Below, piece after piece: positions 260-30,093 of a stretch of DNA of 36,061 nt. Within the stretch, counting starts at the first letter, position 1; the number at the start of each line of letters is the position of its first letter. Source of the DNA: Bacillota bacterium (GTDB lineage Bacteria; Bacillota; Dethiobacteria; Dethiobacterales; Dethiobacteraceae). The stretch is taken from assembly GCA_012800795.1 (NCBI GenBank), contig JAAZIQ010000077.1, forward strand, positions 1-36,061. Reading direction: 5' to 3'. Under the pieces are notes generated by a model. The model worked only from the letters and a program-made list of their open reading frames with translations. It was not told the DNA's origin and ran no database searches. A program made the translations under genes and the position numbers.

Positions 260-1378
260 ATGAAAAAAGCCCATATTCTTTTGGTGGTACGTCCGGCTGT
301 CGGAGGAATGTACCGACATTTGCATGTACTGATTAATTACCTGCAGAATGATTTTAATTTTAGCGTAGCTTGTCCTACTGAGCAGATTAATGCTTACCAG
401 AATTTGCCCTGTCGGGTAATAGGATTGCCTTTATTAAGCGGCTTAAATCTTTATTATGATTATCAGTCTGTCAAACAGCTTATCTGTATGCTGCAGTCAG
501 ATTCCATTCAATTTATTCATGCCCATGGCTTTAAGGCGGGATTTATTGCGCGGCTGGCAGGACGCTACTGTAAAGTGCCTTGCTTAGTAACAGTACATAG
601 TGATTTTGTACAAATTGAGAATACCCGGCTGCCAGCCGTATATCTACTGACAGAACGATTTTTGGCAAATTGGACCGCAGAGTATATTACTGTTTCTGAG
701 TGGTTGGCATCTAAATTAATCTCTATGTTAAAAATTAAAAAGGAGCGCATTAATGTCATCCCTAACGGCGTGGGAACTACAACTAAAAATCCCTTGCCGC
801 CATTAACATTGCCCTTCCCGGAAGAGACAGTATTGGTAGGGACTGTAGCCAGACTGGCTCCACAAAAAGGGGTAGAAACATTTATACGTGCAGCAGCCAT
901 TTTGTTGCCGCATTTTCCCCATGCTCGTTTTGTGGTGGCAGGTTCCGGGCCGTTACTTTTAACACTTAGGCAATTAGCTAAACAATTAGGTTTAAATGAA
1001 TATCTACTATTTTTAGGACATTGTGAGCAGATAAATTCTCTGCTGGCAAAGTTAACTGTCTTTGTACTTCCTTCGCTGAGTGAGGCTCAGGGCATTGCCG
1101 TGCTGGAAGCAATGGCTGCAGGATGCCCTGTTGTTGCTAGTTCTGTGGGGGGGTTACGGGAAATAATCCAACATAAGCGTAACGGGCTGCTTGTGCCGCC
1201 TGGTGACGCCAAATCACTTGCTTCTGCCATCCAAACTTTACTTTTACAACCGCGTTTGGCCGCACGCTTGGCTGCACAGGGAAAGCTCGATGTGGCACGC
1301 TTTAGTTTAGCAGAGAGCATGAGAAAAACTAAACTGGTCTATGAAAGGATTTTGGGAGGCAGGCTTGAAGATAGATGA
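260..1378 (+). CDS. Family 4 (GT-B) glycosyltransferase
   Basis: This 372-residue protein should transfer a nucleotide-activated sugar to a lipid or glycan acceptor at the cytoplasmic membrane face. An N-terminal glycine-rich acceptor-side loop (GGMYRH, residues 16-21) fits the GT-B fold. The C-terminal half has VARLAPQKG near residue 197 and the donor-binding E-x7-E type motif SEAQGIAVLEAMAAG starting near 273, typical of GT4 enzymes. The ATG at 260 follows GAGGGG. Its stop overlaps the next start in an ATGA, so it is translationally coupled to the membrane protein at 1375. Sugar and acceptor cannot be told. It is the first gene after the left repeated element. Confidence 0.88.
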   Translation: MKKAHILLVVRPAVGGMYRHLHVLINYLQNDFNFSVACPTEQINAYQNLPCRVIGLPLLSGLNLYYDYQSVKQLICMLQSDSIQFIHAHGFKAGFIARLAGRYCKVPCLVTVHSDFVQIENTRLPAVYLLTERFLANWTAEYITVSEWLASKLISMLKIKKERINVIPNGVGTTTKNPLPPLTLPFPEETVLVGTVARLAPQKGVETFIRAAAILLPHFPHARFVVAGSGPLLLTLRQLAKQLGLNEYLLFLGHCEQINSLLAKLTVFVLPSLSEAQGIAVLEAMAAGCPVVASSVGGLREIIQHKRNGLLVPPGDAKSLASAIQTLLLQPRLAARLAAQGKLDVARFSLAESMRKTKLVYERILGGRLEDR

Positions 1379-3543
1379 AAAAAATTTTTCAGGTATTGGT
1401 TTTTATTTCTATGCTAATATTTTTGCCCGGCAAGGCTTATGCTGCCGGCAAAGTAGTTATTTTTTCTTTAAACTGCGTTAGTCTGGAACAGTTATTGGAA
1501 AATAAAGAAATAAATTATTGGCTGACACAGGGAAGTGTAGGATTATTGAATACTGGCACTGCCGCAAGTGCCGGCAGCCGTCATCTTGCGGTGACGCTGG
1601 GGGCCGGCTCACGTGCCTTAGGCACTGATCATACCCGTTTAGCGTTGCAGCAGGAAGAAAAATATGAGGGAATTGCTGCCGACATCATTTTTCACAGACA
1701 CCAGGGGATAATGCCCCAGGGCAGGATTGTCCATCTTGGAATGGCGGAATTAATTGCTGCCAATAAAGAACTTCCTCATCCTGTGCAGCCGGGCTTACTA
1801 GGTGATACTCTGCATGTCTTTGGGAAAAAAACTGCCGTGCTGGGAAATGCGGATACTTTGCAGCATCAACGTGAGATGGCAGCTGTCTTGGCTGACAGTA
1901 CGGGCCAAATTGATTTTGGGCAGGTTAGTGAGGCTATTTTGGTAGAAGATGATAGTTTTCCTTATGGCCGGCGGATTAATAAAGAAATGCTCTGGCAGGC
2001 ATATAGTGATTTATACCCTTTTTCTGATGTTTTGTTGATTGATTGGGGGGATACCGCGCGTTTAGATGCTTATCGTTTAAAATTACGTGAAGATGTGGCA
2101 AGTAAGATAGAAGCAAAAATATTTGCCGATATTAACTGGTTTTTACAGCGCCTTATTCCTGCCTTAGGACCAGAAGATGTTCTGTTGATTATGGCAGCAG
2201 TTCCTCCGTCCCAAAAAAGCGGAGCAGAAACGCTGGGTTTTATTGCTGTTTTCGGAAAGACATTTCCGGCAAATCATTTACTGACGTCTGCAACAACACA
2301 GCGTGCCGGTCTGGCCAGTGTAACTGATATCGCGCCTTTTATACTGTCACATTTGGGACTGCCTCAGCCTCAAGATATGCTTGGCTGTCCTTTGACATTA
2401 GCGGAAAAAGGGGATATTGACGATTTATTAACAATGCGCAATACAATCGACCGCATCTATCGTTTACGGCCGCCGCTGCTTAAAACTTATGTTGTTTTGC
2501 AGATTATTTTTGTGTTGGGGGCCTTACTAAACTTATTTGTGCAAATACTGGCCGCGCATTTTTTCGAAGCAGTATTATTGGGATTAATGACAGTCCCCTT
2601 ACTTTTGCTTTATTTACCATTGGGGAAGATTTCGCTTGTGGCCGGCTTTTTTGTTACAGTGGTGGCAGTGCTGATAACGGTAATTGTTTTGCTGCGTTTT
2701 GTTCCGAATGTGGTAGTACGTTTTGCCATCATCGGTATTGCCACTTCTATTTCTTTGTTGGTGGATATAATTTGTAATGCACAACTAATGAAAGTATCAG
2801 TTTTAGGTTATGATCCGGTTGCGGGAGCACGTTATTACGGTATGGGGAATGAATATATGGGTGTTTGGGTTGGAGCAACCATCTTGGCTGCAGCGGCGGT
2901 TTCGGAATTATTTCCGCATTTTCGCCGTAAAATTCTGATACCCATTATCATTTTTTTTCTCATGATTATTTTTTTGCTGATATTACCTACGACCGGTGCT
3001 AATTTTGGCGGGACTCTGACGGCAATTAGTGCTTTTACTATTTCAGTTTTACTGTGGGCAAATTTTAGACCAAGCTGGAAAAATATAGGTTTTATTTTGT
3101 TGTTTTTGGCAGCAGTGGGTATTTTGGCAGTGTTTATCAATCTAGCTGTGCCCCAAAGACTGCAGTCTCATCTTGGACGGACTTTAGTATTGCTGCAGCA
3201 TAATGGGTGGCAAATTTTAAAGGATATCATCATACGCAAGGCAAAAATGAATATAAAGCTATTTCGCTATTCCCAATGGAGTCGTGCTTTGCTTGCATTT
3301 TTACTTATGCTGGCCGTATTGTTTTACCGACCGCGCGGTATTTTAAAAGACATATCTAAAAAGTATCCCATGTTGTCTGTCGGGTTCTGGGGAGTAATCG
3401 CAGGCAGCATTACTGCGTTTTTAGTTAATGATTCCGGTGTGGTAGCAGCTGCGACTACGCTTTTATATGCAGGTGTGCCCATTATTATTTTAGCCGGCAG
3501 AGTAAATAGCGAAATTGGCACAGAAAAGAGCTTGTATAAATAA
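1375..3543 (+). CDS. Signal-peptide protein with a degenerate alkaline-phosphatase-like N-domain and a polytopic membrane C-domain; function unknown
   Basis: I do not recognise a characterised homologue of this 722-residue protein. Residues 1-23 form a signal peptide (MKKIF..., ending AYAA). Residues 25-345 look like an extracytoplasmic alkaline-phosphatase-superfamily domain: VVIFSLNCVS sits where metal-binding members have a DG-containing strand, followed by TLGAGSRALG and a late segment SVTDIAPFILSHLGLP. The usual first-metal Asp appears replaced by Asn, so it may not hydrolyse phosphate. From about 370 onward there are ten or so hydrophobic helices carrying polar motifs that look conserved: YYGMGNEYMG, TTGANFGG and LVNDSGVV. 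GGGAGGC precedes the ATG, and a four-base overlap couples it to the glycosyltransferase. An envelope glycan or glycolipid role is inference from context. Confidence 0.75.
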   Translation: MKKIFQVLVFISMLIFLPGKAYAAGKVVIFSLNCVSLEQLLENKEINYWLTQGSVGLLNTGTAASAGSRHLAVTLGAGSRALGTDHTRLALQQEEKYEGIAADIIFHRHQGIMPQGRIVHLGMAELIAANKELPHPVQPGLLGDTLHVFGKKTAVLGNADTLQHQREMAAVLADSTGQIDFGQVSEAILVEDDSFPYGRRINKEMLWQAYSDLYPFSDVLLIDWGDTARLDAYRLKLREDVASKIEAKIFADINWFLQRLIPALGPEDVLLIMAAVPPSQKSGAETLGFIAVFGKTFPANHLLTSATTQRAGLASVTDIAPFILSHLGLPQPQDMLGCPLTLAEKGDIDDLLTMRNTIDRIYRLRPPLLKTYVVLQIIFVLGALLNLFVQILAAHFFEAVLLGLMTVPLLLLYLPLGKISLVAGFFVTVVAVLITVIVLLRFVPNVVVRFAIIGIATSISLLVDIICNAQLMKVSVLGYDPVAGARYYGMGNEYMGVWVGATILAAAAVSELFPHFRRKILIPIIIFFLMIIFLLILPTTGANFGGTLTAISAFTISVLLWANFRPSWKNIGFILLFLAAVGILAVFINLAVPQRLQSHLGRTLVLLQHNGWQILKDIIIRKAKMNIKLFRYSQWSRALLAFLLMLAVLFYRPRGILKDISKKYPMLSVGFWGVIAGSITAFLVNDSGVVAAATTLLYAGVPIIILAGRVNSEIGTEKSLYK

Positions 3544-13866: not shown

Positions 13867-16545
13867 ATGAGCAAGGTAAACATTACTATTAATGGTCAAG
13901 CACTGCAGGTTGACGCCGGCATGACCATTTTGGAAGCAGCACAGGCCGCTGGAATTGATATTCCCACATTCTGTCATGATCCGGAATTAACCCGAGCCGG
14001 TGCTTGCCGCATTTGCGTGGTTGAAGTGGCCGGTGCGCGGAATTTGCCTGCTTCCTGTACTACTCCCGTAGCTGAGGGAATGGTGATTGAGACAGAGTCG
14101 GAGCGCGTGCAAAAAGCGCGTAGAAGCATTTTGGAATTAATCTGGGCAGACCACCCCCATGATTGTTTAACTTGCGAAAAAACAGGTTCCTGTAAACTGC
14201 AGGATTACAGCTATCGTTATAATGTTAAAGAAAGTCCTTATAAAGGTGAGGCTAGGGATATCCCATTGGATGATACTAATCCATTTTTCTTCCGTGACCT
14301 CAATAAATGTATTCTTTGCGGTAAATGCATACGCAAATGCCATGAGATTAACGGTGCCGGTGCCATTGATTTTATGTACCGGGGCTTTGGCACTAAAGTT
14401 ACTACCGCATTTGATGATCCCATCGAAGAATCTTCATGTGTATTTTGCGGCATGTGTGTGGATATTTGCCCCGTTGGCGCTTTAATACCTAAGCAGGGAT
14501 TGCAACAAGGTCGTTCTTGGGAAGTGGATAAAGTACTGACTACTTGCCCATACTGTGGTTGTGGCTGTACTTTCTATCTCCATGTACGCAACGATAAAAT
14601 TGTTGGTGTAACACCGAATTTTGACGGCCCGATGAAAGGTCATCTGTGCGCCAAAGGGCGCTTTGGCTGGGATTTTGTAGACAGCCCGGATCGTTTACAA
14701 ACGCCTCTGATTAAAAAAGACGGGGAATTTGTTGAGGCCAGCTGGGAAGAAGCCTTAGACCTTATTGCCGCTAAATTAAAGGAGGTGAGGGCACAATACG
14801 GCGCAGATGCCATTGCCGGGTTATCTTCAGCACGGATAACCAACGAAGAAAACTATCTCTTCCAGAAGTTACTGCGCAGTTTAGGCACTAATAACGTCGA
14901 TCATTGTGCCCGTTTGTGACACGCTCCCACTGTGGCCGGTCTGGCCACTGCATTTGGTAGCGGTGCAATGACAAATACTATTGATGATATTGAAAAGACC
15001 GAGGTCATCTTTGTAATTGGCTCCAACACTACGGAGAACCATCCGGTAATTGGTTACCGTATTAAACAAGCGGTGAAAAAAGGTGCCAAATTAATTGTTG
15101 CTGACCCGCGCTATATTGAGTTATGCGACTATGCAGATGTGCATCTGCAAATTAAACCAGGTACAAATGTTGCTTTGTTAAACGCCATGGCCCATGTTAT
15201 TATCAAAGAGGGCTTGGCAGATGAAGAATTCATTAGGGAAAGAACGGAAAACTATGCGGCATTAAGAGTAACTGCCAGAGATTATACTCCCGAATATGCT
15301 GCTGAAATTACCGGTGTTCCGGCTGAGGATATTGTAAGGGCCGCTCGCCTTTACGGTGCAGCAGAGGCAGCCATGATTTTCTACACCATGGGTATTACTC
15401 AGCATACTACCGGTACTGACAACGTCTTGGCTGTTGCTAACTTAGCACTGCTGACGGGCAATGTTGGCAAGCCCGGTAGCGGTGTGAACCCCCTGCGAGG
15501 ACAGAATAATGTGCAGGGTGCCTGTGATATGGGAGCCCTTCCCGATGTTTTCACTGGTTACCAGCCTGTAACTGATGAGTCTGTGCGGGCTAAATTTGCC
15601 AAAGCTTGGGGCGTTGAACTTTCCGGAAAAGTCGGCCTAACCGTAACGGATATGTTTACGGCTGCCGGTGCTAAAAAAATCCGGGCCATGTATATTGTCG
15701 GTGAAAATCCCTATCTTTCTGATCCTGATTCAGCTCATGTCCGCCAGTGTATGGATACTTTAGATTTCCTGGTGGTACAGGATATTTTCATGACAGAAAC
15801 GGCTCAATATGCCGATGTGGTTTTGCCGGCCGTTACTTGGGCCGAAAAAGAAGGCACATTTGTGAATACTGAGCGCCGTGTGCAAAAAGTAAATCAGGCA
15901 TTGCGGCCGCGTGGCAATGCTAAGGCTGATTGGCAGATTTTTGTTGAGCTTGCCAATAAGCTGGATTTTGACTGGAATTACACTTGTGCCGAAGATATTT
16001 TTAAAGAAATTACAGCGCTGACTCCAAGCTATGCCGGCATCACTTACGACCGTTTGGGTGCAAATGGTATTCAATGGCCTTGCCCCGGCGCAGATCATCC
16101 CGGCACGCCAATCCTGCATGTTGGAAAGTTCAGTAAAGGTTTTGGGCATTTTAGTGCTGTGGAGCACCAGGATTCTGCAGAACTTCCCGATGCAGATTAT
16201 CCCTTTATTTTAACAACAGGCCGTATTCTGCATCATTACCATACCGGTACAATGACACGCCGCAGTAAGCCTCTGCGCTTTGTACAAGATGAGGAATTTA
16301 TGCAGATTAACCCCCTTGATGCTAAAGCTTTAGGTGTGACGGAATGCGATATTGTGAAAGTAAGTTCCCGCCGCGGTTCAGTAAAGACGCGTCTGAAGAT
16401 TACCGATAGTGTACCTCCAGGAGTAGTCTTTATGACATTCCACTTTAAAGAAACAGCCGCCAACCTGCTTACTAATCCACAGACATGCCCAACGGCAAAA
16501 ATTCCTGAACTAAAAGCCTGCGCTGTCAACATTGAAAAAATATAA
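13867..16545 (+). CDS. fdhA: Formate dehydrogenase catalytic subunit, selenocysteine-containing
   Basis: Interconverts formate and CO2 at a Mo/W-bis-pterin centre. The frame runs 892 residues if the TGA at 14917-14919 is read as Sec351; context NNVDHCARL-Sec-HAP matches the active site of Sec-type FdhF enzymes. The N-terminus is NuoG-like: [2Fe-2S] at C36/47/50/64; His-Cys3 [4Fe-4S] at H96/C100/C103/C109; two ferredoxin clusters at C148/151/154/158 and C191/194/197/201; then the catalytic-domain [4Fe-4S] at C227/230/234/261. A C-terminal molybdopterin dinucleotide domain follows (about 770-890). Start ATG follows GAAGGAGGG, 15 bases after the flavin subunit. This is the electron-rich, NAD(P)-linked cytoplasmic type known from acetogens. 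Bifurcation with ferredoxin is possible but not shown. Confidence 0.95.
14917..14952 (+). promoter_or_regulatory. SECIS element for selenocysteine insertion at UGA 14917
   Basis: Directly after the UGA, GTGGCC (14932-14937) pairs with GGCCAC (14943-14948) around the loop GGTCT. The Escherichia coli fdhF SECIS has the same GGUCU loop motif. The loop GGU here starts 21 bases after the U of UGA, which as I recall the fdhF sequence is the same spacing. This is what SelB needs to recode the stop. Confidence 0.9.
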
Positions 16546-18665: not shown

Positions 18666-18916
18666 TGAAGGCAATGATGAGGAGAGTAGGTATACTGGAA
18701 GCTCAGCGAAGCGGGGATGGTGGGAGCCCGCTGTGGAAGGTATACTGAAGCGCACCTCTGAGCCGTGTGCCAAACGGCGTCTGCTTAGTAGGTTACACCG
18801 GGTAAGCCCGTTAACGCTGTCTGTGTCTTGGCACAGGGAAAGTTGGGTCATTTTGGCCAATGAAGGTGGTACCGCGAGATATACCTCTCGTCCTTTAGGG
18901 ATGGAGAGGTTTTTTG
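18666..18916 (+). ncRNA. T-box leader, apparent tRNA-Arg (CGC) specifier
   Basis: The consensus T-box AAGGTGGTACCGCG is at 18863-18876. Stem I is visible: GAGG 18679-18682 with CCTC 18755-18758, then GTATAC 18690-18695 with GTATAC 18740-18745. The specifier loop between them has AGTA (18685-18688) opposite GAA (18747-18749), the loop-E arrangement. After GAA and one G comes CGC (18751-18753), followed by the conserved A. CGC encodes arginine, matching the operon. The distal GCGGG/CCCGC arm with GATGGTGGGAG and a Stem III-like CGGG/CCCG are also present. Uncharged tRNA-Arg would stabilise the antiterminator and allow transcription of argC onward. Confidence 0.95.
18883..18916 (+). terminator. 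T-box regulated terminator
   Basis: ACCTCTC (18883-18889) pairs with GAGAGGT (18904-18910), followed by TTTTT to 18915. It directly follows the T-box sequence, which would compete for pairing in the antiterminator form. Confidence 0.92.
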
Positions 18917-18946
18917 TTTAAGAAAAACTTTAAGGTGGTGTTTGAA

Positions 18947-19966
18947 ATGTTGAAAGTGGCAGTAATAGGTGCAACAGGATATGCAGGTAAAGAGTTGGTA
19001 AGCATTTTGGCTCATCATCCCTATGCACGGCCTTATTACATAAGCAGTGAAAGCTTCAGTGGTCAGCGTTTTGATCAAGTCTACCCGGAATTTCGTTCTG
19101 TTTGCGAGTTGCCGCTGGAAAAGTTTGATTTAAAAAAAGCGGCAGCCTGTGATTTCATTTTTACTGCCCTGCCGCATGGCTTGTCGGTTAAAGAAGTGCC
19201 CAAACTTTTAGATACAGGTAAAAAGATAGTGGATTTTAGCGGTGATTTTCGGTTAAAAGAGCCTTCCTTGTATCCGACCTGGTATGGTTATGAACACAGC
19301 AGTAGGGAAAACTTGGCAGTGAGTGTTTATGGTCTGCCAGAATATAATCGTGAAAAGATTAAAGAGGCAAAATTGATTGCCAATCCCGGCTGCTATCCTA
19401 CCAGTGTTTTACTGGCGCTTAAACCACTGCTGGCCGAGGGCCTGATTGAGACTGAAGATATTATTGTGGATGCCAAGTCCGGTGTTTCCGGTGCCGGCCG
19501 TTCACCTAAACTGGCGTATCATTTTCCGGAGTGTACGGAAAACTTCAAGGCTTATAAGGTAGCAGCTCATCAGCACACCCCGGAAATTGAACAGGAGTTG
19601 AGTAATATAGCCGGCAGGAATATTACTTTACTTTTTATCCCGCATTTAGTGCCCATGATTCGCGGCATACTTTCCACCATTTATGTGCGCAGTGCGGCAA
19701 GAGTAGATGAAGCCACCATTAACGCCGCTTATCAAAAGCATTACGCTGATGAACCCTTTATTCGGTTGTTACCTCAAACAGAACTGCCGGAAACAAAACA
19801 TGTCAGCGGCACCAATTTCTGCGATATAGCTTTTCGACTGGATCCCCGTACAGGGCGGCTAATAGTTGTTTCTGCCATTGACAACCTGGTCAAAGGTGCG
19901 GCAGGCCAGGCTGTGCAAAATATGAATATCATGATGGGTTGGCCCGAAGAAGCGGGTCTTGTGTAG
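18947..19966 (+). CDS. argC: N-acetyl-gamma-glutamyl-phosphate reductase
   Basis: NADPH-dependent reduction of N-acetylglutamyl phosphate to the semialdehyde, third step of arginine synthesis. It has 339 residues: the Rossmann start VAVIGATGYAGKELV (4-18), catalytic Cys149 in ANPGCYPTS, and the later HQHTPEIEQEL segment with the active-site His. I choose ATG 18947 because AAGGTGG lies seven to nine bases upstream; a TTG at 18914 lies inside the terminator T-run. It is the first gene after the T-box leader, and argJ follows after 14 bases. Confidence 0.97.
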   Translation: MLKVAVIGATGYAGKELVSILAHHPYARPYYISSESFSGQRFDQVYPEFRSVCELPLEKFDLKKAAACDFIFTALPHGLSVKEVPKLLDTGKKIVDFSGDFRLKEPSLYPTWYGYEHSSRENLAVSVYGLPEYNREKIKEAKLIANPGCYPTSVLLALKPLLAEGLIETEDIIVDAKSGVSGAGRSPKLAYHFPECTENFKAYKVAAHQHTPEIEQELSNIAGRNITLLFIPHLVPMIRGILSTIYVRSAARVDEATINAAYQKHYADEPFIRLLPQTELPETKHVSGTNFCDIAFRLDPRTGRLIVVSAIDNLVKGAAGQAVQNMNIMMGWPEEAGLV

Positions 19967-19980
19967 GAGGAAAAGTAGCG

Positions 19981-21189
19981 ATGAAATTTCGTAAAGTTGA
20001 AGGGGGAGTAACGGCTGCTAAGGGTTTTTGGGCGGCAGCTACTGCCAGCGGGATAAAAAAACAGGCTGAGAAAGATTTGGCGCTGATTTATTCCCAAGTT
20101 CCAGCGGCAGCCGCTGGAATGTTTACCCAGAATCGTTTTCAGGCTGCACCCGTTACTATCAGCCGTAAGCATTTGGCTGACGGCAGAGCACAAGCTATTA
20201 TTGTCAATAGCGGCAATGCCAATGCCTGTACCGGAGAACAAGGTCTTAAAGATGCACAAAAAATGACAGAATTGACGGGCAAACTACTGGGACTTTTACC
20301 GCATGATGTGTTGGTAGCTTCAACCGGTGTGATTGGTCAGTTCCTGCCCATGACAAAGTTAGAAAGAGGTATTCGGGCCATAGTAGGGCAGCTTAAAGCT
20401 GACGGCGGGCCGCTGGCAGCCGAAGCCATTTTGACAACAGACCTTGTATCTAAGATTACTGCTTACGCGCTGGAAATTGGAGGGCAAACGGTTACCGTGG
20501 GAGGCATTGCTAAAGGGTCCGGTATGATTCATCCCAATATGGCTACGATGTTGGCCTTTATTACCACTGATTGCGCCATTACTCCTTCTCTGCTACAGAA
20601 GGCTTTACAGTATACGGTTGATCGTTCTTATAATTTAATTACCGTTGATGGTGATACGAGTACCAATGATTCAGTAATGGTTTTAGCCAATGGAATGGCC
20701 GGCAACCCAATAATTGAAGAAGAAAATGAAGATTATCATCGTTTTCTGATGCTGCTGCAGCGGGTTAATAGTGAACTGGCGCAAAAAATTGTACGCGATG
20801 GTGAAGGGGCAACCAAATTTATAGAAGTTACTGTAAAAAATGCTGCTACTGAACTTGACGCGAAAAAATTGGCACGGGGTATTCTGACTTCCAATCTGGT
20901 AAAAACGGCTTTTTTTGGTGAAGATGCCAACTGGGGCCGCATTGTAGCGGCCATGGGGCAGACAGAGGTAGAACTTTATCCGGAGCGGGTGGATATTTAC
21001 TTAGGAAATTTACCAGTAATGCAGGCCGGCCAGGGCCTTGATTTTGCTGAAGAAGAGGCAAAGGAAATATTAAAGCAGAAGGACATTCGGATTATCATAG
21101 ATTTACACATGGGTAATGCAAAGGTTACAGCCTGGGGCACCGATTTAAGCTATGAATATGTAAAAATTAATGCCAGCTATCGCAGCTAG
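19981..21189 (+). CDS. argJ: Glutamate N-acetyltransferase / ornithine acetyltransferase
   Basis: Moves the acetyl group from acetylornithine back to glutamate, making the pathway cyclic. It has 402 residues. The self-cleavage site is in HPNMATMLAF, between Ala188 and Thr189, with Thr189 becoming the nucleophile; KGSGMI just before is the conserved lead-in. NSGNANACTG (76-85) is also typical. TAGGAGG supports ATG 19981; longer in-frame starts would overlap argC. Whether it also uses acetyl-CoA (bifunctional type) cannot be read from sequence. No argA or argE is in the window, consistent with a recycling pathway. Confidence 0.97.
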   Translation: MKFRKVEGGVTAAKGFWAAATASGIKKQAEKDLALIYSQVPAAAAGMFTQNRFQAAPVTISRKHLADGRAQAIIVNSGNANACTGEQGLKDAQKMTELTGKLLGLLPHDVLVASTGVIGQFLPMTKLERGIRAIVGQLKADGGPLAAEAILTTDLVSKITAYALEIGGQTVTVGGIAKGSGMIHPNMATMLAFITTDCAITPSLLQKALQYTVDRSYNLITVDGDTSTNDSVMVLANGMAGNPIIEEENEDYHRFLMLLQRVNSELAQKIVRDGEGATKFIEVTVKNAATELDAKKLARGILTSNLVKTAFFGEDANWGRIVAAMGQTEVELYPERVDIYLGNLPVMQAGQGLDFAEEEAKEILKQKDIRIIIDLHMGNAKVTAWGTDLSYEYVKINASYRS

Positions 21190-21197
21190 AAGCTGCG
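21181..21197 (+). repeat. Perfect inverted repeat across the argJ stop codon
   Basis: CGCAGCT (21181-21187) and AGCTGCG (21191-21197) form a seven-pair stem with a three-base loop that contains part of the argJ TAG. There is no T-run, so it is not a terminator. It may affect mRNA processing or translation between argJ and argB. Confidence 0.45.
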
Positions 21198-21216
21198 AAA
21201 AAAGGGAGGTGTAAAT

Positions 21217-22110
21217 ATGGTTAATGAGATGAAGAAGTTAATTGAGAAAGCGGGTGTTTTAATTGAAGCCTTGCCCTATATACGTACTTTTGTGAACAAA
21301 ACTTTTGTTATAAAGTATGGCGGTCAGGCCATGATTTCCGATGAATTAAAAAAATCAGTCATGATGGATATTATTCTTTTAAAATTCATTGGCATTAACC
21401 CAATTCTGGTGCATGGCGGAGGCTCAGAGGTAACGCGGATGTTGCAGCGCTTGGGAAAAGAAGCTGTTTTTGTTAATGGCTTACGTGTAACAGACGCCGA
21501 AACCGTGGAAGTAGCGGAAATGGTGCTTACAGGCAAGGTAAATAAGGAAATTGTCAGTCTTATAAATCAATTTGGCGGTAAGGCAGTGGGTCTTTCCGGT
21601 AAAGATTCAAATTTATTGGTGGCTCGCCGCCGTGGCCCTGAACGGATGAACGGCAGCTCGGAAACGGTTGATCTGGGTTTTGTAGGCGACATCATAAAAG
21701 TTAATCCTGATGTTTTATATACTTTGAGCCGTGAGGGTTATATCCCTGTAATTTCTTCCATTGCTGTCGGCCTGGAAGGGGAAAGTTTAAATGTTAACGC
21801 TGATCATGTTGCCGGAGAACTGGCGGCAGCACTGCAGGCGGAGAAATTAATTATCTTAACGGATGTGGAGGGAATTTTTGCCAATGCACAAAAGCCGGAT
21901 TCGCTTATTTCAGCTTTGCCGCGGGCGAAAGCACTGGAAATGATCGAAGAAGGAAAAATCAATAAAGGAATGATCCCAAAAGTTGAGGCCTGCCTACGTG
22001 CGCTGGAGCATGAAGTGAGCCGTACCCACATCATTGATGGCAGAGTTCCCCATTCTTTACTGCTGGAGATTTTTACTGATCACGGCATTGGCACCATGGT
22101 AACTAGTTAG
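21217..22110 (+). CDS. argB: Acetylglutamate kinase
   Basis: Phosphorylates N-acetylglutamate with ATP. The 297 residues show the amino-acid kinase fold: KYGGQAM (33-39) with Lys33, VHGGGSEV (65-72), and a late ATP-site segment NKGMIPKVEACLRAL. About 28 residues precede the first strand (KLIEKAGVLIEALPYIRTF), the N-terminal helix known from arginine-inhibited hexameric kinases such as those of Pseudomonas and Thermotoga, and absent in the shorter E. coli enzyme. Feedback inhibition by arginine is therefore likely. GGGAGGTG precedes ATG 21217. Confidence 0.97.
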   Translation: MVNEMKKLIEKAGVLIEALPYIRTFVNKTFVIKYGGQAMISDELKKSVMMDIILLKFIGINPILVHGGGSEVTRMLQRLGKEAVFVNGLRVTDAETVEVAEMVLTGKVNKEIVSLINQFGGKAVGLSGKDSNLLVARRRGPERMNGSSETVDLGFVGDIIKVNPDVLYTLSREGYIPVISSIAVGLEGESLNVNADHVAGELAAALQAEKLIILTDVEGIFANAQKPDSLISALPRAKALEMIEEGKINKGMIPKVEACLRALEHEVSRTHIIDGRVPHSLLLEIFTDHGIGTMVTS

Positions 22111-22121
22111 GAGGGAGAGTT

Positions 22122-23306
22122 TTGGACTTAAAAAGCTTGGACCGTTTGCATATTATCAATACCTATAACCGGCAGCCGGAAACTACTCTACTGCTGAAAA
22201 GGGGGCAGGGCGTTTATGTCTGGGATGAGCAAGATAAACGCTATCTTGATTTTGTTTGCGGTTTAGCCGTAAATAATTTGGGACATTGTCATCCACAAAT
22301 TGTCAGTGCCATTTGTCAGCAGGCACAACAACTAATGCATACTTCAAATCTGTATTATACGGAGCCGCAAATCCGCCTTGCAGAGCGGCTTGTAAAAAAT
22401 TCTTGTGCCGAGAAAGTTTTCTTTTGCAACAGTGGAGCCGAGGCTAATGAGGCAGCCATAAAATTAGCACGTAAATACGGTAAACAAAAAAAAGGTGAAG
22501 CCTTTGAAATTATTACTGCCCACAGATCTTTTCACGGCCGTACTTTAGCCACGGTTACGGCAACCGGCCAGCCTAAATACCATAAAGGGTTTGAACCCAT
22601 GCTGCCTGGTTTCCGCTATGCCGAGTTTAATAATTTGCAGTCATTTGCAGACCAAATCAATGATAAAACATGCGCCATTTTGGTGGAACCCGTTCAGGGT
22701 GAAGGGGGCGTCTATCCTGCCACAGCAGAATTTCTGCAGGGCCTGCGGCATTTATGCGATGAGTATGATTTACTTTTGATTTTTGATGAGGTGCAGTGCG
22801 GCATGGGTAGGACAGGTAAGATTTTTGCTTACGAGCATTATGGCGTAGAACCAGATGTTTTTACTTTAGCGAAAGCTTTGGGTGGAGGTCTGCCCATTGG
22901 TGCTATGTGCGTCAAAGCTAAGGCGGCGGAAATACTGGCTCCGGGCGAACATGCTTCAACCTTTGGCGGAAATCCTGTTGTTTGTGCCGCAGCCAATACG
23001 GTACTGGATATTTTACTGGCAGATGGTTTTCTTGAACAGGTAAAGTATTTGGGAGATTATTTCCAACAAAAACTGGCGCAATTGTCATCTCCCCGGATTG
23101 TTTCCATCAGAGGACTCGGTTTAATGATAGGGTTAGAAATTAATGGCGACGGAGCAAAAGTTGTGTCATTGTGTCAGGAACAGGGGCTTTTAGTAAATTG
23201 TATTGGAGGGAAAACTTTACGCTTTCTGCCACCGCTAATTGCCACAGAAGCTGATTTTGATGCAGCTGCGGAAATACTACAAAAAGTATTTACAGCATTT
23301 GATTAG
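22122..23306 (+). CDS. argD: Acetylornithine aminotransferase
   Basis: Class III PLP aminotransferase converting N-acetylglutamate semialdehyde to N-acetylornithine with glutamate as donor. It has 394 residues: [16 protein letters not shown] (103-118), [13 protein letters not shown] (137-149), [14 protein letters not shown] (219-232) and Schiff-base Lys251 in [13 protein letters not shown]. Compact length and the lack of an N-terminal extension separate it from the PatA-like paralogue at 6388. The start is TTG at 22122, with AGGAGGGAG upstream; argB ends 11 bases before. Position inside the arg operon supports the assignment. Such enzymes can also serve lysine synthesis. Confidence 0.96.
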
Positions 23307-23320
23307 AAGGAGGCGCGAAA

Positions 23321-26300
23321 GTGCCGAAAGCAGAGGGATTGCAAAAAGTTTTAGTCATTGGTTCCGGTCCTATTGTAATCGGGCAGGCAGCTGAATTTGA
23401 TTATGCCGGTACACAAGCCTGTAAAGCGCTGCATGAAGAAGGCTGCGAAGTAGTACTGGTTAACAGCAATCCGGCCACCATTATGACTGACCCGGAGATT
23501 GCAGAGCGCGTCTACCTGGAACCCCTTACTGTGGACTTTTTAGCAAAAATTATTGCCAGGGAACGCCCTGACGGCCTACTACCCACATTGGGTGGGCAGA
23601 TAGCTTTAAATTTAGCAAAAGAACTGGCTGAAAAAGGTGTGCTGGCAAAATATAATGTTCGCCTTTTAGGAACACCATTAGCTGCGATTAAGCGTGCCGA
23701 GGATCGGGAGCTTTTTAAGGAAATGATGCTGGCAATAGGTGAACCTGTTCCTCCCAGTGCCATCGTTTCTTCAGTTGATGAAGCATTATCTTTTGCCGCA
23801 CAGGTTGGCTATCCTCTGATTGTTCGTCCTGCCTATACCCTAGGCGGTTCCGGCGGCGGTTTTGCCACAGATGACCAATCATTAAGGGATGTAGTTGCAA
23901 GAGGTTTAAAATACAGTTTGATTAAGCAGGTTTTGCTGGAAACCAGTGTGGCGGGTTGGAAGGAAATTGAATTTGAAGTAATGAGGGATGCTTTAGATAA
24001 TTGCGTTACCATATGCTCCATGGAAAATTTTGACCCGGTAGGCGTGCATACAGGGGATTCTATCGTATTTGCACCGGCCCAAACTTTATCTGCGGCAGAA
24101 TATCAACTGCTGCAGGCGGCAGCATTGAAAATAATCAGTGCGCTGGAGATAGAGGGTGGCTGCAATGTCCAATTTGCTCTGCACCCCCACGGCAAAGAAT
24201 ATTTTGTAATAGAGGTTAATCCTCGCGTCAGCCGTTCCAGCGCTTTAGCCTCCAAAGCCACAGGCTATCCCATCGCTAAAGTGGCGACAAAAATAGCCAT
24301 TGGTTTGCATCTGCACGAGATATTTAATAATGTCGGTAAAACCCCGGCTTGTATGGAGCCGAGTATAAATCATGTAGTAACAAAGATTCCCCGCTGGCCT
24401 TTTGATAAGTTTCATGTGGCCGATAGGCGTTTGGGAACGCAAATGAAAGCTACAGGCGAAGTGATGGCCATTGGATACACCATAGAAGAATCTTTACTTA
24501 AAGCGGTTCGCTCGCTGGAGATTGGCCAAAGCGGCCTACGCATGCCTGCACTTGCACAAATCAGTGAACATAGTTTGCTGGAAGAGTTAAAAAAGCCAAC
24601 TGATGAACGTCTTTTTATCTTGGCAGAAGTATTGCGCCGTGGCCTGTCAGTGGAATATATAGCAAGTATTACCGGCATTGCTCCATTTTTTATTAAGAAA
24701 ATTAAAAATATCACGGATGCTGAAAAAAAACTGCAAACCTTATCACTTGCGCAATTAACAGCAGAGCAGTTACGCCACTATAAACAATTAGGCTTTGCCG
24801 ATAGTGAAATTGCTGCCTGTATGGGCGTAGCAGCGGAGGAAATTGGGGCAAAACGTCGGGAGTTTGAACTTTTTCCGGCATTTAAAACCGTTGAAAGTTA
24901 TGCAGATCGTTTTTCACCCTATTATTTTTCAACTTATAACCGAAAAGGAAAATTAGCAGACGATAAACAGGAGAAAATACTTGTTCTTGGTGCAGGTCCC
25001 ATTCGCATTGGGCAGGGAATAGAGTTTGATTATTGTTCTGTTCACAGTGTCTGGGCCATCAAAAAAACCGGACGCCAGGCCATTATCATCAATAATAATC
25101 CGGAGACAGTGTCTACTGATTTTGATTGTGCCGATAAACTTTATTTTGAGCCCCTTACGGTAGAAGATGTGCTGGCGGTGGTGGCAAGGGAGCAGCCTGA
25201 AGGAGTAGTTGTTCAATTTGGCGGCCAGACAGCTATAAATTTGGCAGGCGCACTGGCAAAAGCAGGAGTAAAAATTCTAGGCACATCCGTAGAGGCCATT
25301 GATCTAGCTGAAGATCGAGAGAAATTTAATAAGCTGCTACTGCTTTTAGGAATACCGCAGCCGGATGGGGTGGCCGTTTCTTCCCGGCATGAAGCGCTTG
25401 GTGTTGCCAACCGTCTGGGTTTTCCGCTCTTGGTTCGCCCTTCCTATGTGATTGGCGGGCGGGCCATGCAAATTGTACACAATGAAGAACAGCTTTTTAC
25501 TTATTTGAAGCTGGCAGCCAATATATCACAAGAACATCCCGTTTTAATTGATCGCTACTTATTGGGTACAGAAGTAGAAGTGGATGCAGTCTGTGACGGT
25601 ACCACTGTGCTGATTCCCGGAATTTTTGAGCATATTGAACGTGCTGGTGTCCATTCAGGAGATTCCATGGCTGTTTTCCCGCCCCAATCCCTTTCAGAGC
25701 AAATAATAGCAACTATTACAGAATATACAGTGCGTATTGCTTTAGCTTTAGGTATACGCGGTTTAGTTAATATCCAATATGTAGTCTGGCAGGACAGGGT
25801 ATATGTGCTGGAGGTTAACCCGCGGGCCAGCCGCACCGTTCCTATTATCAGCAAAGTGACGGGAATACCTTTGGTGTCCCTGGCAACACGGATTATGCTG
25901 GGGGAAACTTTAAGTGACATGGGATACGGACATGGTTTGGCGACGCCTCCACCCTATGTAACAGTTAAAGCTCCTGTATTTTCCTTTGCCAAACTGCAGC
26001 AGGTAGATATTTCCTTGGGGCCGGAAATGAAATCCACAGGTGAAGTATTGGGTATTGATGATGAATTTGCAGATGCATTATACAAAACTATGCTGGCCAG
26101 CGATTTTTCTTTCCCGACAGAAGGAAGAATCCTTGCCAGTGTGGCCGACAAAGATAAAAAGGAACTGATTAGTGTACTTTTACAGGCCTATGATGCCGGC
26201 TTTAAAATTTATGCTACTTCCGGTACGGCACAGGCGCTGCGCATGGCGGGAGCAGCCAACATTGAAATTGTCAATAAAGTGGGGGAGGGTCTGCCCAATG

Positions 26301-26539
26301 TGCTTGATTTAATTCGTACAGGGCAAGTTGATTTTGTTGTCAACACACCCACCTATGGTAAAAATATAACCACCACAGGATATCAGGTGCGGCGAACATG
26401 TGTGGAATATAACGTGCCCTGTTTAACGGCAGTTGATACAACTACAGCCTTTTTTAAAATTTTACTGCGTAAAGCCACAGGGCATCTGCATCCGAAGGTC
26501 ATTTCCTTGCAGGAATATTTACAAAAACAGCGGCGATAA
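23321..26539 (+). CDS. carB: Carbamoyl-phosphate synthase large subunit
   Basis: Makes carbamoyl phosphate from bicarbonate, ammonia and two ATP. The 1072 residues show both ATP-grasp halves: [19 protein letters not shown] (15-33) opens the carboxyphosphate domain, with [12 protein letters not shown] near 170 and [20 protein letters not shown] near 300. The second half opens with [20 protein letters not shown] near 560, with [11 protein letters not shown] near 830. The C-terminal allosteric MGS-like domain starts near 936 and has ATSGTA and TPTYGKN. Start GTG 23321 follows AAGGAGGC. The small glutaminase subunit CarA, usually adjacent, is absent from the window. Place in the operon shows a role in citrulline formation. 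Confidence 0.96.
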
Positions 26540-26559
26540 AGAAAGGGAGAGAGAGGAAA

Positions 26560-27489
26560 ATGGGCGGATTAAGGGGCAGGGATTTTTTAACGGTTAATGA
26601 TTTTACCCAGGCTGAACTCCAGGAGTTACTTGATTTTGCCCTTTTGCTCAAAAAAGATTGGCAGGAAGGGAAACCTCAGCTTCTTTTGCCGGGGAAAACG
26701 CTGGGCATGATTTTTCAGAAGGCTTCTACGCGAACTCGTGTTTCCTTTGAAGTAGGAATGGTGCATTTGGGTGGTTATGCACTTTTTTTAAATGCTAGTG
26801 ACTTGCAAATAGGACGCGGCGAAAGCATTAGAGATACAGCGCGTGTTCTTTCCCGCTACTTAGATGGACTTATGATCCGTACTTTTGCTCACGCCGATGC
26901 TCTGGAATTGGCAGAGCATGCCGATATCCCCATTATCAACGGACTGACTGATTTACTCCACCCCTGTCAAGCCATGGCAGATTTACTGACAATTTGGGAA
27001 CATAAAGGGAGACTGCAGGGCTTAAAATTGGCGTATGTCGGTGATGGCAATAATGTGGCCCATTCTCTGCTTTTAGCCTGCAGTAAAATGGGAATGCATG
27101 TGGCGGTTGCCAGTCCACGGAATTATCAGCCCCAGGCAGAGATTGTGACGCAAGCTCTGGAAAATGCAAAAGTTCATGGCAGCACTGTTTTAGTTACTAC
27201 TAATCCCAAAGCTGCTGTCGAAGATGCCGATATAATCTATACTGATGTCTGGGTGAGTATGGGGCAGGAAGAGGAAAGAGAAAAGCGCTTGGAAATATTT
27301 AAGCCATATCAGGTAAATGCAGATTTAGTGGCAGAGGCGGCAAAAGATGCTGTTATTATGCATTGTCTGCCGGCGCATCGCGGTGAAGAAGTAACGGAAG
27401 ATGTGCTGGAAGGACCGCAGTCGGTTGTTTTTGCCCAGGCGGAGAACCGTTTGCATATGCAAAAAGCAATTTTGGCTAAATTATTATAA
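26560..27489 (+). CDS. argF: Ornithine carbamoyltransferase
   Basis: Joins carbamoyl phosphate and ornithine to give citrulline. The 309 residues carry the carbamoyl-phosphate loop STRTR (56-60), HPCQAMADLLT (134-144), DVWVSMGQEEE near 228-238 for ornithine, and HCLPAHRGEEV near 268-278 with the catalytic Cys. These separate it from aspartate carbamoyltransferase. GAAAGGGAGAGAGG precedes the ATG. It follows carB by 20 bases, so the producer and consumer of carbamoyl phosphate are co-expressed. Confidence 0.97.
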   Translation: MGGLRGRDFLTVNDFTQAELQELLDFALLLKKDWQEGKPQLLLPGKTLGMIFQKASTRTRVSFEVGMVHLGGYALFLNASDLQIGRGESIRDTARVLSRYLDGLMIRTFAHADALELAEHADIPIINGLTDLLHPCQAMADLLTIWEHKGRLQGLKLAYVGDGNNVAHSLLLACSKMGMHVAVASPRNYQPQAEIVTQALENAKVHGSTVLVTTNPKAAVEDADIIYTDVWVSMGQEEEREKRLEIFKPYQVNADLVAEAAKDAVIMHCLPAHRGEEVTEDVLEGPQSVVFAQAENRLHMQKAILAKLL

Positions 27490-27511
27490 TAACTGAAAGG
27501 GAGGAATGGCT

Positions 27512-28714
27512 ATGAAAAAGATAGTATTGGCTTACTCTGGCGGTTTGGATACATCAATCATTATAAAGTGGCTTAAAGAAACTTATCATGCCGAAGTTAT
27601 TGCCATGGCAGCCGATGTGGGGCAGGGCGAGGAATTGGCGCCGCTGGAGGAAAAAGCACTGCAGTCAGGTGCCAGCAAAATATATATTGAAGACCTACGT
27701 GATGAATTTATGAGCGACTTTATTTTTCCCCTCTTGAAATCAGGTGCGTTGTATGAGCAAAAATATTTGTTGGGCAGTGCTATTGCCCGTCCGGTTATTG
27801 CGAAGCGTTTGGTGGAGGTGGCGTTAAAAGAGGGGGCTGAGGCTGTAGCGCATGGTGCCACAGGAAAAGGTAACGACCAGGTGCGTTTTGAATTAACAAT
27901 TAAAGCTTTAGCCCCGCAGTTAAAGATTATTGCTCCCTGGCGCCTTTGGAATATCAGATCGCGCGAGGATGCCATAGATTACGCGGCAAAGCACGGCATT
28001 CCGGTCCCGGTGACAAAAGATAAGCCCTACAGTATGGACCGCAATCTTTGGCACATCAGTTATGAAGGCGGCATTTTGGAGGATCCTAATGTGGAACCCG
28101 AAAAAGATATGTTTCTGCTAACAACGGATCCGGCTGAAGCGCCGGATACTCCGGAGTATGTGGAAATTGGCTTTAAAGAAGGTGTACCGGTTAGTGTTAA
28201 CGGTGAAAATCTTGATCCGGTAGCTTTGCTGATTACTTTAAACAACATCGCAGGACGCCATGGTGTAGGAAGGGTCGATATGGTGGAAAATCGTTTAGTG
28301 GGCATGAAATCACGTGGTATTTACGAAACACCGGGCGGCACGCTGCTTTATTATGCGCACCGTGAGCTTGAAGCACTGACTTTGGATCGTGAAACTGCCC
28401 ATTTTAAAGAAATGGCAGCCGTTAAATACGGCGAACTGGTTTATTACGGTCTTTGGTATACGCCGCTGAGAGAGGCTTTGGATGCCTTTTTTGACTGTAC
28501 ACAGCGCAATGTAACCGGAACAGTGCGGTTAAAACTATATAAAGGCAATGTAATGGTGGCCGGCCGCTCATCAGACTACTCCCTCTACCGGGAAGACTTG
28601 GCTACTTTTGAAGCCGATGACATATATAACCAGCGGGATGCAGAAGGTTTTATCAATCTGTTTGGACTACCCCTAAAAGTGCAGGGGTTGATGAAGAAAG
28701 AGTATAAGGAGTAG
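27512..28714 (+). CDS. argG: Argininosuccinate synthase
   Basis: ATP-dependent condensation of citrulline with aspartate. The 400 residues open with the PP-loop [12 protein letters not shown] (4-15), followed by [13 protein letters not shown] (about 112-124), the conserved ATP and citrulline site segment. ATG 27512 is eight bases after AAAGGGAGG; the ATG at 27506 is only two bases from it and would add two residues. Typical full length with no breaks. The next start is five bases after the stop. Confidence 0.97.
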
Positions 28715-28719
28715 ATCTC

Positions 28720-30093
28720 ATGAAACTTTGGGGCGGGAGATTTGATAAAGAAACCGATTCCTTGGTGGAGGAATTTAATGCCTCCATTAGTTTTGATCAA
28801 AGGCTTTATGAGGAGGATATCCGCGGCAGTATGGCGCACTGCCGGATGCTGGCGGCCTGTGGGATCATTACTGCGGAAGAAGCTGAATTGATCAATAAGA
28901 CGTTGGCCGAAATACTGGTGGAGATTAAAGAAGGCAAACTGGAGCTTACGGCAGAGCTGGAAGATATTCACATGCATGTGGAAAAGCGCCTCCTGGATAA
29001 AATCGGTCCGGTTGGCGGCAAGCTACATACAGCCCGTTCCCGTAATGACCAGGTGGCGCTGGATATGCATCTTTATGTCAAAAAAGAAATTGAGGAGACA
29101 GTAGCTTTAATCAAAAATCTGCAGCAGGTACTACTAACGGTAGCGGAAGAAAATTTAGACGCTGTGATGCCCGGCTATACACATTTGCAGCGCGCACAGC
29201 CGGTGCTTTTTGCACATCATTTATTGGCATACTTTTGGAAACTGCAGCGCGACAGGGAGCGTTTTTGGGATGCGTATAAACGTGCCGACTATTCACCCTT
29301 AGGTGCCGGCGCCCTTGCCGGAACCACTTTTCCCATTGATCCTAAAATGGTTGCGGCTGAATTAGGTTTTACCTATGTTTATGAAAACAGTATGGATGCT
29401 GTTAGCGACCGTGATTTTGTGGTGGAATTTTTGGCCAATGCTTCCTTACTAATGACTCACTTGAGCCGCCTAAGTGAAGACATTATTCTTTGGAATTCGC
29501 AAGAATTTGGCTTTATTCAATTGGATGATGCTTTCGCCACCGGCTCTAGCATTATGCCGCAAAAGAAAAATCCGGATGTAGCTGAACTGGTAAGGGGAAA
29601 AACCGGCAGGGTGTATGGGCATCTTTTGGCGCTTTTAACTACGCTGAAAGGTTTACCGCTGACATATAATAAAGATTTGCAGGAAGATAAAGAAGGCCTT
29701 TTTGATACGGTTGATACCATTAAAAATTGTTTAGCTCTCTATGCTGCGCTGCTGCGAACAATGAAAATAGATAAACAAAGAATGTATAAAGCCGTAGCGG
29801 GTGATTTTGCCATTGCCACCGACTTGGCTGATTACTTGGTGCGTAAAGGCTTGCCTTTTCGCGAAGCACATGCTGTTGTGGGGCGCCTGGTGAGAAAATG
29901 CATTGCTGAAAAACGCCTCCTTACTGATTTAACGGTGACAGAATTAAAGGCACATAGTGCACTTTTTGCTGAGGATGCCCTTACTTGCCTCACACCGCAT
30001 GCATGTGTGGAGGCGCGTTCTTCCTATGGCGGTACCGCGCAAAGTGCAGTAAAAGAGCAGCTGAAGCAGGCAAAAATAGCTTTAAATAAATAA
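28720..30093 (+). CDS. argH: Argininosuccinate lyase
   Basis: Releases arginine and fumarate from argininosuccinate. The 457 residues begin with [12 protein letters not shown], contain [13 protein letters not shown] near 106-118, and carry the fumarase-superfamily loop [11 protein letters not shown] near 276-286, whose first Ser region is the catalytic base. Start ATG follows AAGGAG, five bases after argG. It is the last gene of the arginine operon. Its TAA lies at the edge of a bidirectional terminator shared with the convergent gene. Confidence 0.97.

Follow-up and report, generated by a model that had tools for sequence, protein, structure and literature searches.

A conserved two-gene system of a GT4 glycosyltransferase and an uncharacterised pseudo-phosphatase membrane protein in Bacillota

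Analysis of a 36,061-nucleotide stretch of DNA from a Bacillota bacterium (contig JAAZIQ010000077.1; the whole stretch is hereafter called the window) revealed that the genes for a GT4 glycosyltransferase and a 722-residue membrane protein constitute a real, conserved and uncharacterised two-gene system. The reading we favour, with a rough probability of 0.42, is that the membrane protein is an outward-facing transferase (polymerase or ligase) of lipid-linked glycans, which has a pseudo-phosphatase domain for binding, receives its substrate from the GT4 enzyme and is found mostly in spore formers. We infer the substrate, the chemistry and the spore role of the pair, while its topology and membrane fold are predicted.

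Results

Organisation and identity of the gene pair

The features of the unit and of the N-terminus of its second product are as follows.

260 to 1378, + strand: gene for the GT4 glycosyltransferase, first of the unit, 372 amino acids, with the EX7E motif SEAQGIAVLEA
1375 to 3543, + strand: gene for the alkaline phosphatase (AP)-like/polytopic membrane protein, 722 amino acids, with a 4-bp overlap with the GT4 gene
1375 to 1446, + strand: signal peptide-like N-terminus, residues 1-24, recognised by eye; residues 2-16 form a helix in the model

The coordinates of the two open reading frames showed that they share the four bases ATGA, the overlap on which the first-pass annotation had based its coupling of the two products. 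The Pfam search of the GT4 protein returned Glycos_transf_1 (E=7.6e-42, 143.2 bits against a cut-off of 26.4), so that this domain and the EX7E motif, the two marks of the GT4 family, are both present. Its best matches among PDB sequences were generic GT4 enzymes, including BshA, PimA and PglA, and its likeness to characterised enzymes is partial only.

Searches with the 722-residue protein gave no match of note in Pfam and NCBIfam and none by sequence in the PDB, in agreement with the initial remark that no characterised system of this layout is known. The profile constructed from 49 relatives retrieved only a sulfatase fragment from the PDB (E=0.16) and nothing relevant to the membrane half, while seven to ten relatives, scanned singly, gave weak matches to the AP-superfamily Pfam models PF01676 and PF16347. 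A literature search on the family, including the Clostridioides difficile homologue, found no paper. The full-length model (pLDDT 94.6, pTM 0.91) begins with a helix, which is followed by an alpha/beta domain (residues about 25-345) and then by 11 helices of membrane-spanning length; the proposed order of signal peptide, AP-like domain and membrane helices is borne out by it, and the original count of about ten helices becomes 11.

The AP-like domain is a pseudo-enzyme

1453 to 2409, + strand: degenerate AP-superfamily domain, residues about 27-345, assigned by Foldseek and placed outside the cell by the predicted topology

Foldseek comparison of the alpha/beta domain gave 24 matches with E<=0.001, all of them to the AP superfamily (iPGM, sulfatases, MCR-1, GacH and YejM, the last through its periplasmic domain, 6vat), and the AP core fold is present. 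Enzymes of this superfamily need His ligands. The metal ligands of an active AP enzyme, His included, were not found in the domain: no alignment column holds a conserved His (the best reaches 34 of 87 relatives), the sole conserved His of the entire protein, H599, lies in the membrane half, and the first metal-Asp position is occupied by N33. Since the AP fold is combined with a family-wide absence of conserved His, the N-terminal half is a pseudo-enzyme, its fold taken from a confident model and its loss of His from the alignment. The first-pass annotation had rightly called it a pseudo-phosphatase, and had pointed to loss of the first metal Asp (SLNCVS). That loss is real in this protein, but Asp is present at the position in 60 of the 87 relatives, so that the change is local to the lineage; as the reason for inactivity across the family it was rejected, the real loss being that of the His ligands.

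Other positions of the domain are retained, namely D226 (86/87), R229, G157 and T308 (87/87 each) and T62. Their conservation indicates that the domain is not free to drift and, as judged from the alignment, that it is probably a binding domain.

The membrane domain carries invariant residues on its predicted outer face

2422 to 3540, + strand: 11-helix membrane domain, residues 350-722; model of the membrane half alone with pLDDT 94.0 and pTM 0.93
2764 to 2862, + strand: outer segment with D464 and GARYYGxGNEYMG, residues 464-496; D464, R486, Y488, G489, N492, E493 and G496 in 86/86
2986 to 3012, + strand: outer segment P..GANFGG, residues 538-546, from the alignment of 86 relatives
3145 to 3273, + strand: long outer loop with H599, R621-K622 and N626, residues 591-633; H599 and K622 in 86/86, R621 in 85/86
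3427 to 3438, + strand: outer NDSG motif, residues 685-688; N685, D686 and G688 in 86/86

Analysis of the loops revealed that the inner ones mostly carry a net charge of +1.2 to +2.6 (the C-terminal tail +0.3), while the short outer ones are close to zero or negative. This positive-inside distribution predicts that the N-terminus of the membrane domain is outside and its C-terminus inside, with the AP-like domain outside the cell.

Alignment of 86 relatives revealed that R365, D464, G484, R486, Y488, G489, G491, N492, E493, G496, G541, H599, K622, N685, D686 and G688 are invariant, while R621, M625, N626, W635, G545, G546 and S687 are nearly so. The three polar motifs singled out at first reading are thus conserved, GNEYMG through G491, N492, E493 and G496 and VNDSG through N685, D686 and G688, all in 86/86, and GANFGG through G541 (86/86), N543 (77/86) and G545 and G546 (85/86 each), which is not a chance pattern. 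Every conserved polar residue is placed by the prediction either in an outer segment or at the outer end of a helix. Because the motifs lie on this predicted face beside invariant Arg, Asp, His and Lys residues, an outward active site is favoured over a transport path, and the membrane half, as modelled, looks like the carrier of a conserved, outward-facing, active site-like cluster.

Foldseek comparison of the membrane domain with the PDB gave RodA (6pl5) as the best match, with a probability of 0.99, a TM-score of 0.42-0.46 and an E value of 0.09, which is below significance. The FtsW structures 8p1u and 8bh1 followed with probabilities of 0.77 and 0.38, and the other folds among the matches listed had probabilities of at most 0.24. 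The Pfam search showed neither PF01098 (SEDS) nor PF04932 (Wzy_C) in the domain, and hhalign comparison with SEDS or Wzy_C detected no homology above decoys: the domain scored 14.4 against WZY, as compared with 22.0 against its own reverse and 16.8 for WZY against the reversed domain, while the same set-up detected the known SEDS-WZY kinship with a score of 32.4. Homology to Wzy_C, suggested by a full-length hhalign alignment of RYYGMGNEYMG with R-y--gNPN, was rejected since the reversed decoy scores as high or higher.

Conservation of the GT4 pairing

Pairing was scored in 88 distinct members of the 722-residue family with enough flanking DNA, a GT4 gene being counted when it lay no more than 200 bp away and on the same strand. 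An adjoining GT4 gene was present in 68 of them (77%), across many families, upstream in 59 loci and downstream in nine, so the coupling proposed from a single locus holds in both gene orders. Neither outcome named in the first-pass annotation as refuting it, a confident assignment to a characterised family or a lack of conservation of the pair or the motifs, was observed. With three GT4 genes in the 1.67-Mb source genome, the chance of adjacency to the membrane gene by accident is well under 1%. In the GT4 tree, drawn as open, a single group with support 83/81 contains 35 of the 38 paired GT4 proteins, and the small number of other GT4 proteins included lie outside it. A wider functional cluster around the pair was considered and rejected, the neighbours being unrelated housekeeping genes that vary by lineage.

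Members with no adjacent GT4 gene were those of Paenibacillus, second paralogues (L059, L060) and that of C. difficile. The C. difficile homologue (WP_004453973.1, annotated 'hypothetical protein') follows clpC-radA-disA and a PIN/TRAM gene. It also occurs on records labelled as plasmids, for example NZ_CP149721.1, 15650-17827 (L192); as these carry clpC-radA-disA, they are probably misassembled pieces of the chromosome.

A four-gene version of the unit was observed at L069:3803-10667 and L073:8123-14960, where a gene of 322-324 amino acids and the GT4 gene lie between two divergent paralogous genes for the membrane protein. On contig JAGVAS010000151.1 (L004), labelled as a Desulfovibrio MAG, the GT4 and membrane genes hardly differ from their Dethiobacter (L007) counterparts, and this genome is probably mis-binned or mislabelled.

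Distribution and relation to endospore formation

The profile of the 722-residue family matched 246 genomes (about 60%) in a phylum-wide sample of 399, and the family, which also occurs in C. difficile, is without a Pfam or NCBIfam entry or a known role. When SpoIVA was taken as the marker of endospore formation, the family was present in 229 of 336 SpoIVA-positive genomes, a count that excludes 11 marginal matches, and in six of 63 SpoIVA-negative ones (odds ratio about 20); among these six are two drafts with a completeness of 61% and 75%. The control envelope polymerase Wzy_C was found in 255/336 SpoIVA-positive and 34/63 SpoIVA-negative genomes, the figure of 34 being read by hand from the listing (odds ratio 2.7). 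Because the sampled genomes are related by descent, the p-value of the association is too favourable; even so, the family differs widely from the control. The family thus tracks endospore formation, with the exception of families f106 and f133 and one actinomycete relative. Scans for sporulation promoters provided no usable signal: there was no excess for SigE, SigG or SigK, and the apparent excess for SigF overlaps ribosome-binding sites.

The actinomycete relative, from Nonomuraea (L197:2621-4819, profile E=1e-47), has the same layout. Inspection by eye indicated that it keeps D464, R486, N492, H599, R621-K622 and N685-D686 and lacks E493, and that its AP-like domain has a D-H-G stretch. Not every member therefore has this Glu, nor is the link of the family with endospores a strict one; the family either predates them or has been transferred. 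The gene of this relative is followed by one coding for a protein with NAGPA phosphodiester-glycosidase and metallophosphoesterase parts (L197:4847-8257), a possible clue to a role of the family in the handling of glycan phosphodiesters.

Other features of the window

Two listed open reading frames at 13867-16545 are one gene of about 892 amino acids for the alpha subunit of an NAD-dependent formate dehydrogenase, interrupted at 14917-14919 by an in-frame TGA which, in its ARL-U-HAPT context, is very likely a selenocysteine codon. NuoE/NuoF-like subunits are encoded upstream and FdhD downstream. The region 18914-30093 contains a compact operon for arginine biosynthesis with argC, argJ and genes for an aminotransferase, the carbamoyl-phosphate synthase large chain, OTC and argininosuccinate lyase.

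Discussion

Proposed mechanism and alternative explanations

We propose that the pair forms a self-contained system for an envelope glycan or glycolipid, in which the cytoplasmic GT4 enzyme would add a sugar to a membrane-carried acceptor, probably polyprenyl- or lipid-linked, and the product would then cross the membrane. An outer site of the 11-helix protein, comprising R486, N492, E493, H599, R621-K622 and N685-D686, may transfer or polymerise this product in the manner of SEDS proteins or O-antigen ligases (GT-C_B), with Arg and Lys gripping the phosphate of the lipid and the acceptor being activated by H599 or some other polar or acidic residue. The AP-like domain, its metal chemistry gone, would bind the glycan or phosphate on the outside or bring it into position. 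A broader version, in which an unrecognised and widespread transferase family combining AP-like and SEDS/O-antigen ligase-like parts works with a dedicated GT4 enzyme to make a previously undescribed glycan, either of endospores or of the envelope of spore-forming Bacillota, is put forward tentatively and is on the doubtful side. If true, an enzyme family distinct from the polymerase clans described so far would give spore formers a glycan or glycolipid at their surface for which no one has searched.

The membrane domain could instead be a flippase or exporter of the glycolipid made by the GT4 enzyme, with the AP-like domain as an outer receptor or gate. The GT4 pairing, the conserved polar residues and the 11 helices fit this explanation, and catalysis is unproven; on the other hand, neither MurJ nor SecY profiles matched the membrane domain, transporter folds matched it in Foldseek only at low probability, and in the predicted topology the invariant polar residues all lie towards the outside instead of following a transmembrane path, so we regard it as rather unlikely. 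Less credit is given to a membrane regulator or checkpoint, in which a pseudo-phosphatase sensor similar to YejM/PbgA controls envelope or spore synthesis through a non-catalytic membrane domain. The lack of conserved His, the YejM fold match and the association with sporulation would agree with a sensor, but conservation peaks in the membrane domain, where it is active site-like, and YejM-type proteins place the AP domain after the helices.

It is improbable that the AP-like domain still transfers phospho- or phosphonate groups through an unusual metal-free site, after the fashion of the GPI ethanolamine-phosphate transferases, MCR and GacH. Its fold, the retained T62, D226, R229 and T308 and the order of parts shared with PIG-N/O/G speak for such activity, while the absence of a conserved His, which leaves only D33 (60/87) and D226 as possible ligands, speaks against it. 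That two envelope genes lie side by side by chance would suit the unrelated housekeeping genes around them, but conservation in 77% of the testable members, in many families and both orders, with three GT4 genes in the genome, renders this highly improbable.

Comparison with known systems

The 722-residue family resembles the AP superfamily in its fold and in an iPGM-like stretch, DIAP(F/T)IL...LGLPxP, at the C-terminal end of the AP-like domain, and differs from it in having no conserved His ligand and, here, N33 in place of the first Asp. YejM/PbgA likewise has an AP-like domain on a membrane protein and is a precedent for a regulatory role, while its helices precede that domain and its membrane part differs. 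In the GPI ethanolamine-phosphate transferases PIG-N/O/G an N-terminal outer AP domain is followed by many helices, and PIG-N-type enzymes retain the metal site. The likeness to them is one of architecture only; there is no sequence match, and our protein is bacterial, coupled to a GT4 enzyme and devoid of that site.

The SEDS proteins RodA, FtsW and SpoVE (CAZy GT119, PF01098) include the best fold match of the membrane domain, which is below significance. In the membrane domain, outer segments that precede helices 5 and 7, a long outer loop ahead of helix 9 and a motif ahead of helix 11 are conserved; allowing for one extra N-terminal helix, these four would match PL2, PL3, PL4 and PL5 of RodA, and GAR lies beside the segment where SEDS proteins have RRW. 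The functional residues of RodA are R101/W102/Q111 in PL2, D159 and R210/D262 (PMC10449877). Unlike SEDS proteins, the 722-residue protein has 11 helices, an outside N-terminus and a fused AP-like domain, and its long loop carries the invariant H599 and R621-K622 and no invariant Asp, while SEDS have their catalytic Asp in PL4; moreover, its His precedes the basic pair, an order opposite to R210...D262. In the GT-C1/GT-C2 polymerase and ligase clans the conserved residues lie on the outer face only and a long outer loop is situated near the C-terminus (PMC10920833), a GT-C_B-like layout that the membrane domain shows in its predicted topology. Like WaaL/Wzy_C (GT121-GT135), it has in that loop an invariant His together with basic residues (PMC10920833), while PF04932 does not match it and its hhalign score is not above the reversed decoy. 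The relation of the membrane domain to SEDS and WaaL is one of resemblance and not of membership.
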